From positions 1 to 32,733 of the forward strand of contig CAMBBZ010000007.1 of NCBI GenBank assembly GCA_945863965.1: a stretch of DNA of 32,733 bases. Direction: 5' to 3'. The first letter of the stretch is position 1. Every line of letters begins with the position of its first letter. Made by a program: the position numbers and the translations under genes. Shown one piece after another: positions 15,028-23,100 of the stretch. The stretch comes from Chitinophaga pinensis (GTDB lineage: Bacteria; Bacteroidota; Bacteroidia; NS11-12g; UBA955). The notes below the pieces were generated by a model. The model saw only the letters and a program-made list of their open reading frames with translations, ran no database searches and was not told the DNA's origin.

Positions 15028-16095
15028 TTAATTATACTGAAAAGATTGGTGGGCTTTAAGGTTTTTAAGCGCGGCTAGCATCAATTGAATACAAGATTCA
15101 ACATCGTCTTTATGGACCATCTCAACGGTGGTGTGCATATATTTCAAGGGAAGAGAAATAAGCGCAGACGCCACGCCATTGCCAGAGTAGGCAAAGCTAT
15201 CTGTATCGGTGCCTGTTGAACGACTTACCGCATTTCTTTGAAACGCAATCTTGGCCTCGTTGGCCGAATTGATTATAAATTGCAATAAGTTATTTTGAAC
15301 TGCTGGTCCGTAAGTTACAACAGCCCCTTTTCCGCATTTGGTATCTCCTTGGAGTTTCTTGTTATATAATGGACTGTAGGTGTCATGGGTAACATCGGTT
15401 ACTATGGCTACATCGGGTGCTAGGCGCCTTGAAATCATTTCCGCACCGCGTAATCCAATCTCTTCCTGTACACTGTTAACCACATATAACGTAAATGGCA
15501 AGTCTATTTTCTGTTCTTGTATATGGCGAGCAACTTCTGCAATCATAAATCCACCCATCCGATTATCGAGAGCACGACCAATTATAAATTGGTCATTAAG
15601 CCATTCCGAACCGGCTTCAAAAACCGCTACCGCACCGACATGAATGCCTAGTTTTTCTACTTCTTCTTTATTGGCACAACCCACATCAATACACACATTT
15701 TCGGGTTTAATCTCGGGGTCTTTGCCTAAGCGAACGTGCACGGCTGGCCAACCAAACACACCTTTAACTTTATTGCCATTTTCGCAATGGATGTAACAAC
15801 GCATACTAGGTGCAATTTGAAAATCACTACCTCCATTACGAATAACATATATATAACCATCGTCGCTGATATAGTTCACAAACCAACTTATCTCATCGGC
15901 ATGAGCTTCTATTACTACTTTATACTCTTTACCTGGATTTATTACTCCTACCGCAGTTCCGTATGTATCTACAAAGGATTCTGCGATATACGGTTTTAGA
16001 TAATCGAGCCAAATTTTTTGTCCGCTGTACTCAAATCCGGTAGGACTTACGTTATCTAAATACGCATGTAAAAAGGTTTTTGATTCTTCTCTCAT
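15028..16095 (-). CDS. M42-family metalloaminopeptidase
   Basis: This cytoplasmic di-metal aminopeptidase of the M42 (glutamyl aminopeptidase/TET) family, 355 residues, usually forms large tetrahedral assemblies that degrade peptides. Metal and catalytic residues are all visible: His65 and Asp67 (EAHADEIS), Asp177 (RALDNRMGG), Glu211/Glu212 (VQEEIGLRGA), Asp234 (VTDVTH) and His321 (YMHTTVEM). M42 members were once called endoglucanases or cellulases, a name that should be avoided. A perfect -7 box ends only six bases before its ATG, and a tandem repeat array lies further upstream. The acyltransferase gene follows after seven bases. Confidence 0.92.
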   Translation of the reverse strand: MREESKTFLHAYLDNVSPTGFEYSGQKIWLDYLKPYIAESFVDTYGTAVGVINPGKEYKVVIEAHADEISWFVNYISDDGYIYVIRNGGSDFQIAPSMRCYIHCENGNKVKGVFGWPAVHVRLGKDPEIKPENVCIDVGCANKEEVEKLGIHVGAVAVFEAGSEWLNDQFIIGRALDNRMGGFMIAEVARHIQEQKIDLPFTLYVVNSVQEEIGLRGAEMISRRLAPDVAIVTDVTHDTYSPLYNKKLQGDTKCGKGAVVTYGPAVQNNLLQFIINSANEAKIAFQRNAVSRSTGTDTDSFAYSGNGVASALISLPLKYMHTTVEMVHKDDVESCIQLMLAALKNLKAHQSFQYN

Positions 16096-16154: not shown

Positions 16155-16402
16155 ACTTGTTAGAAGCTATAAGATAATTGTTTAACCTTTGACTTTCGAA
16201 CTAGTTTAACCAAATTGAATAGTTCGATAAATCTGCTTTGGTAGAAGGGTTAAGGTTATCATCTAACCTTTGACTTTCGAACTAGTCTAACCAAATCGAA
16301 TAGTTCGATAATTCTAATTTGGCAGAAAGGGTTTAGATTATCATCTAACCGTTGATATTCGAACTAGTCTAACCAAATCGAATAGTTCGATAATTTAGGT
16401 TT
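16155..16402. repeat. Tandem array of structured 81-82 bp repeats
   Basis: Three direct repeats start at 16181, 16262 and 16344; the third is cut short at about 16402, and a degenerate tail of a fourth lies at 16155-16180. Every unit holds the inverted repeat TCGAACTA/TAGTTCGA with its arms exactly 24 bases apart: 16196/16220, 16277/16301 and 16359/16383. A second pair, CCAAA(T)/(A)TTTGG, interleaves with it in units 1 and 2 (16291-16296 with 16317-16322 in unit 2). The array fills most of the 376-bp gap between the tRNA-Val gene and the M42 peptidase promoter. No gene is visible in it. Confidence 0.85.
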
Positions 16403-16433
16403 AATAGAAAATGGGAGTGGAGTGCTGAATACA

Positions 16434-16466
16434 AAAGAAAAGCCCCGCTTTCGCGAGGCTCTTTTT
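16434..16466. terminator. Terminator of the tRNA-Val gene
   Basis: Stem 16441-16448 with 16453-16460, eight pairs including one G-U when read on the minus strand, a GAAA loop and a TTTTCTTTT run. It also has a T-run on the plus side, but the stem has a mismatch in that direction. Confidence 0.8.
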
Positions 16467-16471
16467 TGTTG

Positions 16472-16546
16472 TGGGGGCTACTGGATTCGAACCAGTGACC
16501 CTCTGCTTGTAAGGCAGATGCTCTGAACCAGCTGAGCTAAGCCCCC
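16472..16546 (-). tRNA. tRNA-Val (anticodon UAC)
   Basis: The cloverleaf folds by eye: acceptor GGGGGCT/AGCCCCC, D arm GCTC/GAGC, anticodon stem TCTGC/GCAGA with loop CTTACAA, and T arm ACTGG-TTCGAAT-CCAGT. It has 75 bases including the discriminator A. The anticodon UAC reads GUA and other valine codons. The 3' CCA is not encoded. It stands alone, with its own promoter and terminator. Confidence 0.96.
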
Positions 16547-19623: not shown

Positions 19624-22600
19624 ATGAATCATTTTTTTAAACTTTTAGGCGTTCTTGTTTTTGGGGGAATTCAATTCACACCGCAAGCAGCTTTTTCGCA
19701 ATCTGGCAGTATAGATTTTCAAAACGAATTCCTTCAGCGCAAGGTTGTTAGAAAATCGTATGCCAAAACATACAAAAATGCCGAAAAATTCCTTGAAAAG
19801 GAGTCGCGAAAGTCGCAAAGAAAAAATGAAATTCACAAGGAAATTACCCCGCTAGAATGGTGGAAGCAAGAGTACCTAATGACGATGGACCCCGCTTTAG
19901 GCAGGCCTACTCCGGAAGTGCTTCTTCCCACATTAAAACAATTGAACCGAAAGTCGGTAAGTCTTAGAGCCACTCCAGGATCTAGCTTATATCCTTGGGA
20001 ATCTAGAGGGCCTAACGATATAGCAGGACGAACCCGCGCCCTTTGTTGGGATGCAGCAGATAGTAAACAGCTGCGGGTTTTTGCCGCAGGTGTAACGGGT
20101 GGTTTATGGGTAAATGACGATATAAGCAATGCCAGCAGTGATTGGAAGCAGATAAATGGACTTTGGTCTAACCTAAACGTTAGTTGTATTGCACAAGATC
20201 CAAACGACAGTAAAATTATTTACATAGGAACGGGAGAGGGGTTTGGTACTACCGCTTCTAGTTCTAGAGGGTTTGGCATTTTCAAAACTACAGACGGCGG
20301 AAAATCATGGACGCACCTAAGCACTACGGAAGGTTTGTTTTATATAAATGACATCGCTGTGCGGAATGAATCGGGGAGTAGTGTATTGTATGTGGCCACC
20401 GATATCCTTTACTATCAAGGACAATGGCATGGAACAAATACCGATGCGGGATTATTACGAAGTACCGATGGGGGAGCCTCTTTCACCAATGTGAGTCCTT
20501 TTATTCCCTCACAATCGCAACGATATATTGCATCAGATCTTGAAATTGGACCCGATAATAGATTGTGGGTGGGTACTCGGAAAAATATGTATTCTTCTGC
20601 AAGCGACCAAGGCGGCGGTCGTGTTTTATATTCAGATAACGGAACAAGCTTTACCGAATCTTACAAAAATAGCAACGCACTTAAGGGTAGAGTTGAATTG
20701 GCTTGTGCCCCAAGCTCTAAAGATACATTGTATGCCGTTGTCGAAGCCAATGGTGTGGTTCAAGATGTTGCGCGTAGTTTCAATGCAGGCAGCACTTGGT
20801 CGACATTTACCGAGCCGAGCGATGCAGATAAAGGAATTCCAAGTACTGATTTCACACGAGGTCAAGCTTGGTATGACTTAATCATTGCCGTAAATCCAAA
20901 AAACGCCGCAGAATTGGTAATTGGCGGGGTTAATTTCTTCATGAGCAAGGAATCAGGCAATAATTGGAAACAAATCTCCAAATGGTCTAACAATCCTGGA
21001 ATGGATGCGTTGTCTTGTTCTTACATACATGCGGACATGCATGCAGCTGCTTACACCAACGATGGAAAACGTTTAATTGTAGGCACCGATGGAGGTTTGT
21101 TTTACGCCGCAGATGTGCGAAACGATCCTTGGAATAGCAATACAGCCTTTGTAGAACGCAATAACAGGTATGTAGTTACCCAATATTATGCAGGAAGTAT
21201 TTCCCAAATTAATGCAAATTTCATGGTAGGTGGAGCTCAGGATAATGGAACCAGTTATACCCAAGACACAGGCTTTAATCAAAAATACATGCTCTTCGGG
21301 GGCGATGGTGGTTATTGTTTCATTCACCCCAAGATTGTTGATGCGGTTATTTTCTCCTACGTAAAGAATAATTTCTATTCTTATATCGACAATCAATTGT
21401 ACTATTTAGCTCAGGATAACAATACAGGATCCTTCATCAATCCAGCAGGACTGGATTATGTAAACAATAATCTGTTTACGCAAAAAGGCAAGGGGACTCT
21501 TTATCGGAACGATATTTATGGAAGCACAACAACGCTGGCAACGATTAATTTTGCGACTAGCGTTAATGACTTGGCTACTGCCTTTCATGTGGTTGAACGA
21601 AGCACGGGTAAAGCACGGCTGTTTTTAGGGACTTCATTAGGAAACGTATTTTATAGCGATAATCCAGAGGCGGCAACACCCACATTTTCAAGCTTAGGCT
21701 CCGTGAATTCGGGAAATATAAGTTCCATAGAAACCCTAAATGGATCATTGGATACGCTGTTCCTGACGTTAACGAACTATGGGATCAATAATGTTTATGT
21801 AAGTATCAATGGAGGGACTAATTGGACGGCTATTGATAAGAACTTGCCTAATATGCCGGTGTGGGACATTGTGGCCAATCCCTACAATCGCAAAGAAGCG
21901 ATAATAGCAACGGAATTTGGCATGTATCAGTGTTTAGATGTTTATAATACAGATCCAACTTGGACACCCATTCACAATGGAATGGGCGCTGTTAAAACAA
22001 TGATGCTTGATTACAATAAAAAAGAAGGCGTTTTAATGGCGGCGACTCATGGTAGGGGATTCTTCACGAGCGACGCATGGGTAAAAACAGAGCCAATTGC
22101 GTATTTTAGTTTAAGCGACTCTGTTTTTTGTCAGGGTACAACGATAACTCTTGTCGATTCTTCCATTAATGATCCGAGCAAACGGGTATGGCGGACTAGC
22201 AGTAAAGACCTCGTTTTTACCAATAACGATAGCTTGTCAAAAACAACGAAGCTAGAATGTACCATACCAGGGCAGTTTTTCATTACCCTTGAAATTCAAA
22301 AAGATGGCATTACATCAAGAATTAGCAAATCCATATCCGTATTAGAATCTTATACAAACGGAATCGTGCTGAGTTCATCCAATGTGAATTATTGCGAGAG
22401 CGATAACATTATGTTAAATGCATCATTGGCAGATTCAAGTGTGCTTAAATTAAAAGGCGCCTCATTACAGTGGTTTAAAAATGGCAATCAGATAGTTGGG
22501 AATGCGAATAAGCGTTCTTTAAATATATCAGCTCCGTTGGTTAATAACGATCAGTTTTCTGTTCAATTTACTGCTGATTATGGTTGTTTGTCTCCATTAA

Positions 22601-23100
22601 AAGCAAGTTCCAATACGTTCACTATCAATACATCTGAGTCGACCCCTCTGAATATTACGAGAAGTTGGGATACTCTTTTTAGCAATTACATTGGAACTGG
22701 TATGGTAGAATGGTATCGAAATAATTTGAAAATTGGCACGGGAAAAAGATATACATTGATATCTAATGGTAATTTCCAAGCGAGATTGATCCAAGGGAAT
22801 TGTATAGGTGCTTTTTCAAATACCATTGTTTTCGGCAGTATGAATACACAGGCTTTGGGCCAATATTTACAAATCGGACCCAATCCGAACAAAGGATTGC
22901 TTCAGATTAAATCCAACTTGGATGCCGGATTACAATTATCCATTTTTGACCTGAAAGGGCAATTGGTAAAGTCGAATATGACCATAAAGGCTCAGTTGTT
23001 AAATGAGATTGAGTTAGACATGGCGAATGGGATTTATATTTTGGTATTTAAGAATGATTCAGGAATGGAGTACCAAACGAAAATATCGTTGAACCGTTAA
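19624..23100 (+). CDS. Large secreted T9SS protein with sortilin/BNR-type beta-propeller
   Basis: The protein has 1158 residues. The signal peptide (about 1-26) ends AAFSQ. A Lys/Glu-rich helical stretch (40-75) precedes SLYPWESRGPNDIAGRTRAL (121-140), the usual entry to Vps10/sortilin-like propellers in Bacteroidota. Asp-box repeats are seen as TTDGGKSW, STDGGASF and SINGGTNW up to about residue 820, where THGRGFF closes the propeller. A PKD-like domain (about 825-920), an Ig-like domain with paired Cys (about 925-1010) and a T9SS type A sorting domain starting at IGPNPNKG follow. It is probably surface-bound or released; the ligand or substrate is unknown, and a glycan or peptide-binding role is only a guess. 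It starts 65 bases after hmgA with no terminator or clear promoter between, so partial co-transcription is possible. Confidence 0.85.
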   Translation: MNHFFKLLGVLVFGGIQFTPQAAFSQSGSIDFQNEFLQRKVVRKSYAKTYKNAEKFLEKESRKSQRKNEIHKEITPLEWWKQEYLMTMDPALGRPTPEVLLPTLKQLNRKSVSLRATPGSSLYPWESRGPNDIAGRTRALCWDAADSKQLRVFAAGVTGGLWVNDDISNASSDWKQINGLWSNLNVSCIAQDPNDSKIIYIGTGEGFGTTASSSRGFGIFKTTDGGKSWTHLSTTEGLFYINDIAVRNESGSSVLYVATDILYYQGQWHGTNTDAGLLRSTDGGASFTNVSPFIPSQSQRYIASDLEIGPDNRLWVGTRKNMYSSASDQGGGRVLYSDNGTSFTESYKNSNALKGRVELACAPSSKDTLYAVVEANGVVQDVARSFNAGSTWSTFTEPSDADKGIPSTDFTRGQAWYDLIIAVNPKNAAELVIGGVNFFMSKESGNNWKQISKWSNNPGMDALSCSYIHADMHAAAYTNDGKRLIVGTDGGLFYAADVRNDPWNSNTAFVERNNRYVVTQYYAGSISQINANFMVGGAQDNGTSYTQDTGFNQKYMLFGGDGGYCFIHPKIVDAVIFSYVKNNFYSYIDNQLYYLAQDNNTGSFINPAGLDYVNNNLFTQKGKGTLYRNDIYGSTTTLATINFATSVNDLATAFHVVERSTGKARLFLGTSLGNVFYSDNPEAATPTFSSLGSVNSGNISSIETLNGSLDTLFLTLTNYGINNVYVSINGGTNWTAIDKNLPNMPVWDIVANPYNRKEAIIATEFGMYQCLDVYNTDPTWTPIHNGMGAVKTMMLDYNKKEGVLMAATHGRGFFTSDAWVKTEPIAYFSLSDSVFCQGTTITLVDSSINDPSKRVWRTSSKDLVFTNNDSLSKTTKLECTIPGQFFITLEIQKDGITSRISKSISVLESYTNGIVLSSSNVNYCESDNIMLNASLADSSVLKLKGASLQWFKNGNQIVGNANKRSLNISAPLVNNDQFSVQFTADYGCLSPLKASSNTFTINTSESTPLNITRSWDTLFSNYIGTGMVEWYRNNLKIGTGKRYTLISNGNFQARLIQGNCIGAFSNTIVFGSMNTQALGQYLQIGPNPNKGLLQIKSNLDAGLQLSIFDLKGQLVKSNMTIKAQLLNEIELDMANGIYILVFKNDSGMEYQTKISLNR

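Follow-up and report, generated by a model that had tools for sequence, protein, structure and literature searches.

A repeat array behind a tRNA-Val gene as candidate remnants of a proposed tRNA-anchored gene-cassette system in aquatic Bacteroidia

The described systems closest to the repeats considered here fall among cassette arrays, tRNA-anchored islands and small hairpin repeats. Integrons and CALINs hold gene cassettes that each end in a palindromic site, and CALIN genomes may themselves lack the enzyme. Tycheposons, which span 4–200 kb, carry a xerD-type recombinase (PMC10872708). RAYTs recognise the GTAG tag of the REP repeats, which form arrays, and the GTAG-bearing phyla are listed without Bacteroidetes (PMC3733652). 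A limited search of the open-access literature found no description of arrays such as those presented below.

The window, i.e., the entire stretch of 32,733 nucleotides that was analysed, is contig 7 of a genome of 1.96 Mb in 178 contigs. It holds three tandem units at 16160–16407 with a period of 81–82 bp, each with the dyad TCGAACTA/TAGTTCGA (Table 1). An earlier note, made from the letters alone, had described this array as three and a half units: the array and its period are real, but there are three units, as judged from TRF (16183–16395, period 82, 2.6 copies, 90% matches, the sole strong array in the window) and the sequence itself. The arms start at 16196/16220, 16277/16301 and 16359/16383, which confirms the reported distance of exactly 24 bases, start to start, in 3/3 units; the second pair, CCAAA/TTTGG, is likewise exact in units 1 and 2, with TTTAA replacing TTTGG in unit 3. 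Perfect 8-bp dyads with a 16-nt loop occur at seven places in the window, three of which are the array units, against a shuffled expectation of about one. The spacing had been likened to 8 helical turns; at 10.5 bp per turn it amounts to a non-integer 7.7–7.8. Folding (z of −3.7 and −3.9 for the two strands, both beating the shuffles equally) favours neither strand, because palindromes fold equally well on both.

Table 1. Features of the window's array and its flanks, and the layout of site-bearing arrays in related genomes
Feature	Positions	Strand	Remarks
Unit 1	16160..16244	-	reads as left end + right end without cargo; last on the minus strand; dyad of the earlier note at 16196-16227
Unit 2	16241..16325	-	GTAG/CTAC border (16241-16244) common to units 1 and 2
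Unit 3	16326..16407	-	first on the minus strand; degenerate border (CTAT, TTTAA); R1 81.4 bits
tRNA-Val(TAC)	16471..16546	-	ARAGORN + Rfam; apparently a neighbour, not an anchor; 3' end without CTAC
Terminator-like hairpin	16440..16470	.	between tRNA-Val and the array; retained in congeners without the array
M42 glutamyl aminopeptidase gene	15028..16095	-	PF05343, E 6e-72; right-hand flank of the array
Array L176			site/gene/site/gene/site/gene
Array L173			tRNA-Met/T9SS gene/site/two small genes/site
Array L091			tRNA-Glu/.../site site/gene/site
Array L068			tRNA-Met/site/gene/site site site
Array L056			three sites, two intervening genes

The array is not a private duplication, and it is not a conserved pseudoknot RNA either. 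The further copies that the earlier note had suggested looking for do exist in related genomes, although a DNA search and a relaxed pattern found none elsewhere in the window's own genome. DNA related to the unit was recovered by BLAST in 12 of the 97 genomes searched, the window's own included. The three units match single units at tRNA-Arg genes of relatives with 78–84% identity (unit 1, 78–81% to the loci of genomes G029 and G002; unit 2, 84% to G049 and G005), and this BLAST match is the independent evidence; that the covariance model R1 finds the three units (units 1 and 2 with 97.1 and 99.1 bits) follows by construction, the model having been built partly from unit 1. R1 has matches in 19 of the 108 genomes of the order, with weak second matches lying on the same strand as the strong match in their contigs, while R2, a model of the conserved half of the unit, gave about 65 matches in 20 of the 108. 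The family is confined to the order in the sample searched: five of 395 genomes sampled across the class had matches, 5/5 from this order, and none was found outside it. A family pattern recovered 18 stretches in genome contigs, most of them MAGs, with titles naming Bacteroidia, Bacteroidetes, Bacteroidota or Flavobacteriaceae; the exact pattern of the window unit was not found in genome contigs, and viral contigs, phages and plasmids yielded no family match. The copy number is 1–10 per genome, most of the genomes being fragmented MAGs or single-cell assemblies.

At the window's locus itself, the M42 peptidase is found with tRNA-Val nearby in 11 congeners, in the same gene order, and the array is missing from every congener whose tRNA-Val/M42 stretch was read, including the nearest relative (M42 protein 90% identical). 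Relatives that share the order tRNA-Val, terminator and M42 gene thus lack the array, which speaks against the earlier idea of a regulatory array for the M42 gene.

We read the anatomy of the family on the minus strand, the opposite of that used in the earlier note; the family's neighbouring genes and tRNAs mostly run this way. Elsewhere in the family there are two separable ends: a left end that starts CTAC^CARAGCGGAAT and a right end, TAAAGRTTMGATAANAGTCTNANAGACTCTAC^ (the caret marks the joint). The left end, CTAC^CARAGCGGAATAG...CTATTCCGCTTTTTT, contains a terminator-like hairpin. The right end follows either the remainder of an 81–86 bp unit (CTAC...TTATCGAAC...) or a gene whose 3' end touches it. 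Its CTAC leads most often into CAGAGCGGAATAGTTGAATTTTAGTTCACTATTCCGCTTTTTT, i.e., a left end, and in other cases into a further unit or a different terminator. CTACCAAAGCGGAA occurs both at the start of the G029 unit and in the left end of G058; the 81–86 bp unit thus consists of a left end fused to a right end, with no cargo between them. The reverse complement of the right end is GTAGAGTCTTTGAGACT, with a GTAG tag beside a hairpin, and on the strand of the earlier note each unit accordingly starts with GTAG-AGTCT-TTG-AGACT. Most right ends read RTTCGAT, not GTTRRRY, and resemble the tRNA ends used as anchors (RTTCGAT...CTACCA). Comparison of CARAGCGGAAT at the left end with GTAGAGTCTTTGAGACT revealed no terminal inverted repeats. 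Of the three guesses first offered, a MITE-like element came nearest, in that the unit belongs, as a version without cargo, to a dispersed family and is absent at the same locus in congeners, but its ends are not terminal inverted repeats.

Locus maps showed that the ends delimit gene-sized segments in head-to-tail, same-strand arrays; tandem arrays of gene cassettes with one site each are present in L176, L173, L056 and L091, and at L060 one site lies on the other strand. The genes between the ends often code for type IX-secreted proteins: the cargo includes T9SS proteins (PF18962, PF13585) as well as a metallo-beta-lactamase-fold protein, a fatty-acid hydroxylase and a PMT-family enzyme. A small antisense ORF of 105–106 aa, N-TGIKYGG (L057:1755-2075, L064:2052-2372, L171:2599-2916), recurs in the same cassette with three different upstream genes. 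In the window, positions 19624–23100, next to the region, encode a protein of 1158 aa that has a domain of the Sortilin-Vps10 type and a tail for type IX secretion (PF18962).

We then compared 1.5 kb on each side of every site and aligned the joints. The same cassettes occur next to different partners, and the sequences part at CTAC or within the right end. First, L169 and L175 are alike through CTAC and unrelated from the next base. Second, L171, L057 and L064 have the same downstream segment from about CTAC behind unrelated upstream genes, and L056 and L060 have the unit and downstream gene in common, the similarity starting at the first CTAC of the unit. Third, and most clearly, G049 and G058 differ by a cassette of about 2.5 kb between flanks that are 94–96% identical on both sides: G049 has tRNA-Arg, CTAC, a unit and an esterase gene, and G058 has tRNA-Arg, CTAC, a left end, a CHU_C gene, a right end and the same esterase gene. 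The right-hand break of this pair lies inside the unit, and loss of cargo within a cassette is therefore as good a reading of it as excision. Some other breaks, too, go against joints at CTAC only: in L070 and L073, which come from two taxonomic families, 1.4 kb of the upstream gene are 94% identical and the downstream parts unrelated, with the break inside the right end, and the similarity of L056 and L180 starts about 60 bp before the site. Part of the shuffling could be due to ordinary homologous recombination, between homologous left ends or between C-terminal coding sequences that T9SS genes have in common.

At ten loci (tRNA-Arg, -Met and -Glu, one of them a tRNA 3' fragment), a left end or a full unit comes immediately after GTTCGATTC-N9-CTAC. 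The acceptor sequences of these anchor tRNAs differ while the sequence after CTAC is alike, so that the joint must be at CTAC. Most of the other relatives examined have unrelated DNA behind the tRNA-Arg gene. Where tRNA-Arg is followed by a mutase gene, G063 has no insert; in G083 and G059 the same flanking genes enclose different content. In this comparison no tRNA is recognised in G083, that of G059 is degenerate, and the two flanks of G059 lie on separate contigs. Beside these anchors, G005:C66 (L087:6066-8022) has an integrase, a tRNA-Arg 3' fragment and then a unit, and G049:C44 (L088:7373-7526) a whole tRNA-Arg before the same unit; about 3 kb of the two are 99.7% identical though the bins belong to two genera, which indicates transfer or a misbinned contig. 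At another tRNA-Arg unit, in G002, a GmrSD-type restriction gene (PF03235 + HNH) and two more genes follow (L074:5846-10992), possibly as a defence island, and a 5' piece of tRNA-Arg lies just upstream (L074:5273-5325).

We consider it about two-thirds probable that the window array represents three tandem, cargo-free, decaying copies of a cassette-end element that belongs to an integron-like cassette system. These copies are probably stranded, self-repeated remnants, because they have no cargo, no second locus and decayed right ends (unit 2 scores just 16.1 bits with R2), and only two Xer-size tyrosine recombinases were found in the window's genome. The decayed right end and missing cargo in the window also weigh against the cassette reading, as do the fragmented state of most assemblies and the enzyme searches described below. 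The tRNA-Val gene looks like an incidental neighbour, since its 3' end, CCCCCACA, has no CTAC junction and the array sits behind the tRNA-Val terminator.

For the family at large we tentatively propose, at odds slightly short of even, a non-integron gene-cassette system in which tRNA 3' ends (GTTCGATTC-N9-CTACCA) serve as the attachment platform and a right end mimicking them as the cassette site, and which, run in trans by a host recombinase (e.g., Xer) or one not yet recognised, moves genes for secreted and other proteins between aquatic Bacteroidia. An intact cassette, as seen elsewhere in the order, comprises a left end, one or a few genes and a right end. A putative site-specific recombinase acting in trans would join CTAC to CTAC and insert cassettes behind a tRNA 3' end, as the attachment site, or behind another right end; the left end would restore the CCA of the tRNA, and the effect would be integron-like. 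The presence of GTTCGATTC-N9-CTAC at all ten anchors would be explained by the resemblance of the right end to the tRNA ends used.

The enzyme could be a Xer recombinase working in trans, or one since lost or carried separately. Neither the tyrosine recombinases listed in 14 genomes nor searches for IntI, Y1 and IS110 revealed a recombinase shared by the site-bearing genomes, and no circular form or vector was seen in viral contigs, phages and plasmids. G067, which is 99% complete and has four sites, has only two tyrosine recombinases of Xer size. The DEDD transposase of IS110/IS1111 (bridge-RNA) elements (PF01548) occurs in 5 of the 108 genomes, one of them (G023) site-bearing; like Y1_Tnp and the integron integrase, it does not track the sites. 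An integrase family (PF00589, PF13102; arm-binding domain in one member) is found behind tRNA-Lys/Ala; such an integrase lies directly before a unit in G093 (62 nt) and two genes before one in G090, and was not found in several site-bearing genomes or in most arrays. Four tyrosine integrases directly behind tRNA-Lys or tRNA-Ala (L060:8618-9868, L194:5139-6401, L196:2792-4042, L071:3766-5016) are 63–79% identical, and repeated ATGTTTCAC motifs occur between these tRNAs and the PF00589+PF13102 integrase gene. A divergent tyrosine recombinase family (30–43 bits to PF00589; L221:6275-7336, L222:5101-6144, L225:2419-3498, and fragments in L223 and L224) is encoded 5' of tRNA-Met or tRNA-Asn genes, in divergent orientation; the loci read almost alike as far as the 5' part of the tRNA, and the family looks like a distinct kind of island whose entry is from the 5' end of the tRNA. 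As candidates for the site enzyme, both the tRNA-Lys/Ala and the tRNA-Met/Asn families were set aside, as they look like separate islands.

An unlikely alternative is that the units are GTAG-tagged, REP- or BIME-like repeats moved by a single-strand (HUH, Y1) transposase, the genes between them being bystanders. The GTAG tag and hairpin, the mostly intergenic position of the sites 3' of genes and the arrays known from REPs all fit this, but Y1_Tnp (PF01797) was not found in eight site-rich genomes (G065, G067, G076, G083, G086, G089, G090 and G091), the copy number is far from the high numbers of REPs, and the published GTAG-bearing phyla include no Bacteroidetes (PMC3733652). Such repeats would also leave unexplained the same cassette with different partners and the CTAC joints at tRNAs.

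The tests of structure bear on a second, rather improbable reading, namely a structured 3'-UTR RNA (an mRNA 3' end or terminator) of secreted-protein genes that is carried along by homologous recombination of genes or gene ends. In its favour, a stop codon on the same strand closely precedes 34 of 63 sites, usually with a terminator-like hairpin after the site, and the P1/P3/P4 arms (TTATCGAA/TTCGATAA, GTCTAAA/TTTAGAC and GAGTCT/AGACTC) pair in 76% of cells (shuffles 0/500), although related sequences can exceed shuffles without any structure. The covariation score of these three arm pairs was matched by 3/500 shuffles, but pairs changed on both sides were not above shuffles (410/500), and hairpin P4 alone showed little covariation over 30 right ends. 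Inverted repeats in DNA account for the pairing of the arms no less well than an RNA does. Against an RNA stand the units that directly abut mature tRNA ends, the tandem units without genes and the sharp CTAC joints between unrelated sequences. At the gathering threshold, Rfam returned only the tRNA in the window, and a relaxed search of ten family loci gave nothing relevant. The pseudoknot of the earlier note was rejected: over 24 full units, 62% of the cells in its two stems are paired, which is no more than shuffling gives (168/500), and the stems showed no covariation (265/500 shuffles).

It is more doubtful still that we are dealing with a true but divergent integron or CALIN whose units are attC sites, with arms near RYYYAAC/GTTRRRY, and whose IntI was missed. 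Arms such as ATCTAAC and GTTAGAT do occur in some units, the outer arms with the inner hairpin resemble the attC fold, and there are cassette arrays. However, the IntI cut-off (TIGR02249) was reached in 0/108 genomes of the order, the prevailing RTTCGAT right ends depart from GTTRRRY with joints at CTAC some 20 nt further on, and tRNA ends, not an attI beside intI, act as anchors. Mere local tandem duplication of no wider meaning, which the single locus in its own genome and its decayed copies might suggest, is scarcely credible: the units are 78–84% identical to single ones at the tRNA-Arg genes of other genomes in the family, and a second family has similar copies.

If the proposed system is real, it would be a second cassette-array strategy beside integrons, anchored on tRNA genes, and would help explain the exchange of single genes, especially for type IX-secreted proteins, in small-genome aquatic Bacteroidia without conjugative or phage machinery on the element. 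The left end, right end and CTAC joint form a short searchable signature that makes the question of the enzyme directly testable.

Among known systems, integrons and CALINs share with these arrays the head-to-tail gene cassettes that each end in a palindromic site, the absence of a resident integrase and the recurrence of the same cassettes in different contexts. Unlike them, the arrays of this order have no IntI over the cut-off, their joint lies at CTAC or elsewhere in the right end and not at G/TTRRRY, a tRNA 3' end takes the place of attI next to the first cassette, and cassettes begin with a conserved terminator-like left end; we do not class them as integrons because neither IntI nor the GTTRRRY joint was found when tested for. 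With tRNA islands and tycheposons they have in common tRNA-anchored inserts with variable cargo in aquatic bacteria, but the cassettes are of about 1–4 kb, stand in tandem and mostly show no tyrosine recombinase, though an integrase precedes a unit in G093 and in G090; their joint is at the CTACCA of several tRNAs, and a direct repeat specific to the tRNA was not found at the far end. They recall the GTAG REP/RAYT systems in their extragenic, tandem units of GTAG and hairpin, whereas the present family is low-copy, lacks the Y1 transposase in most site-rich genomes and borders gene cassettes and tRNA ends. Finally, the 81–86 bp unit resembles a MITE in that it corresponds to a larger mobile unit from which the cargo is missing, as if by deletion, but its two ends are not terminal inverted repeats and its border is a fixed CTAC in place of a variable target duplication.
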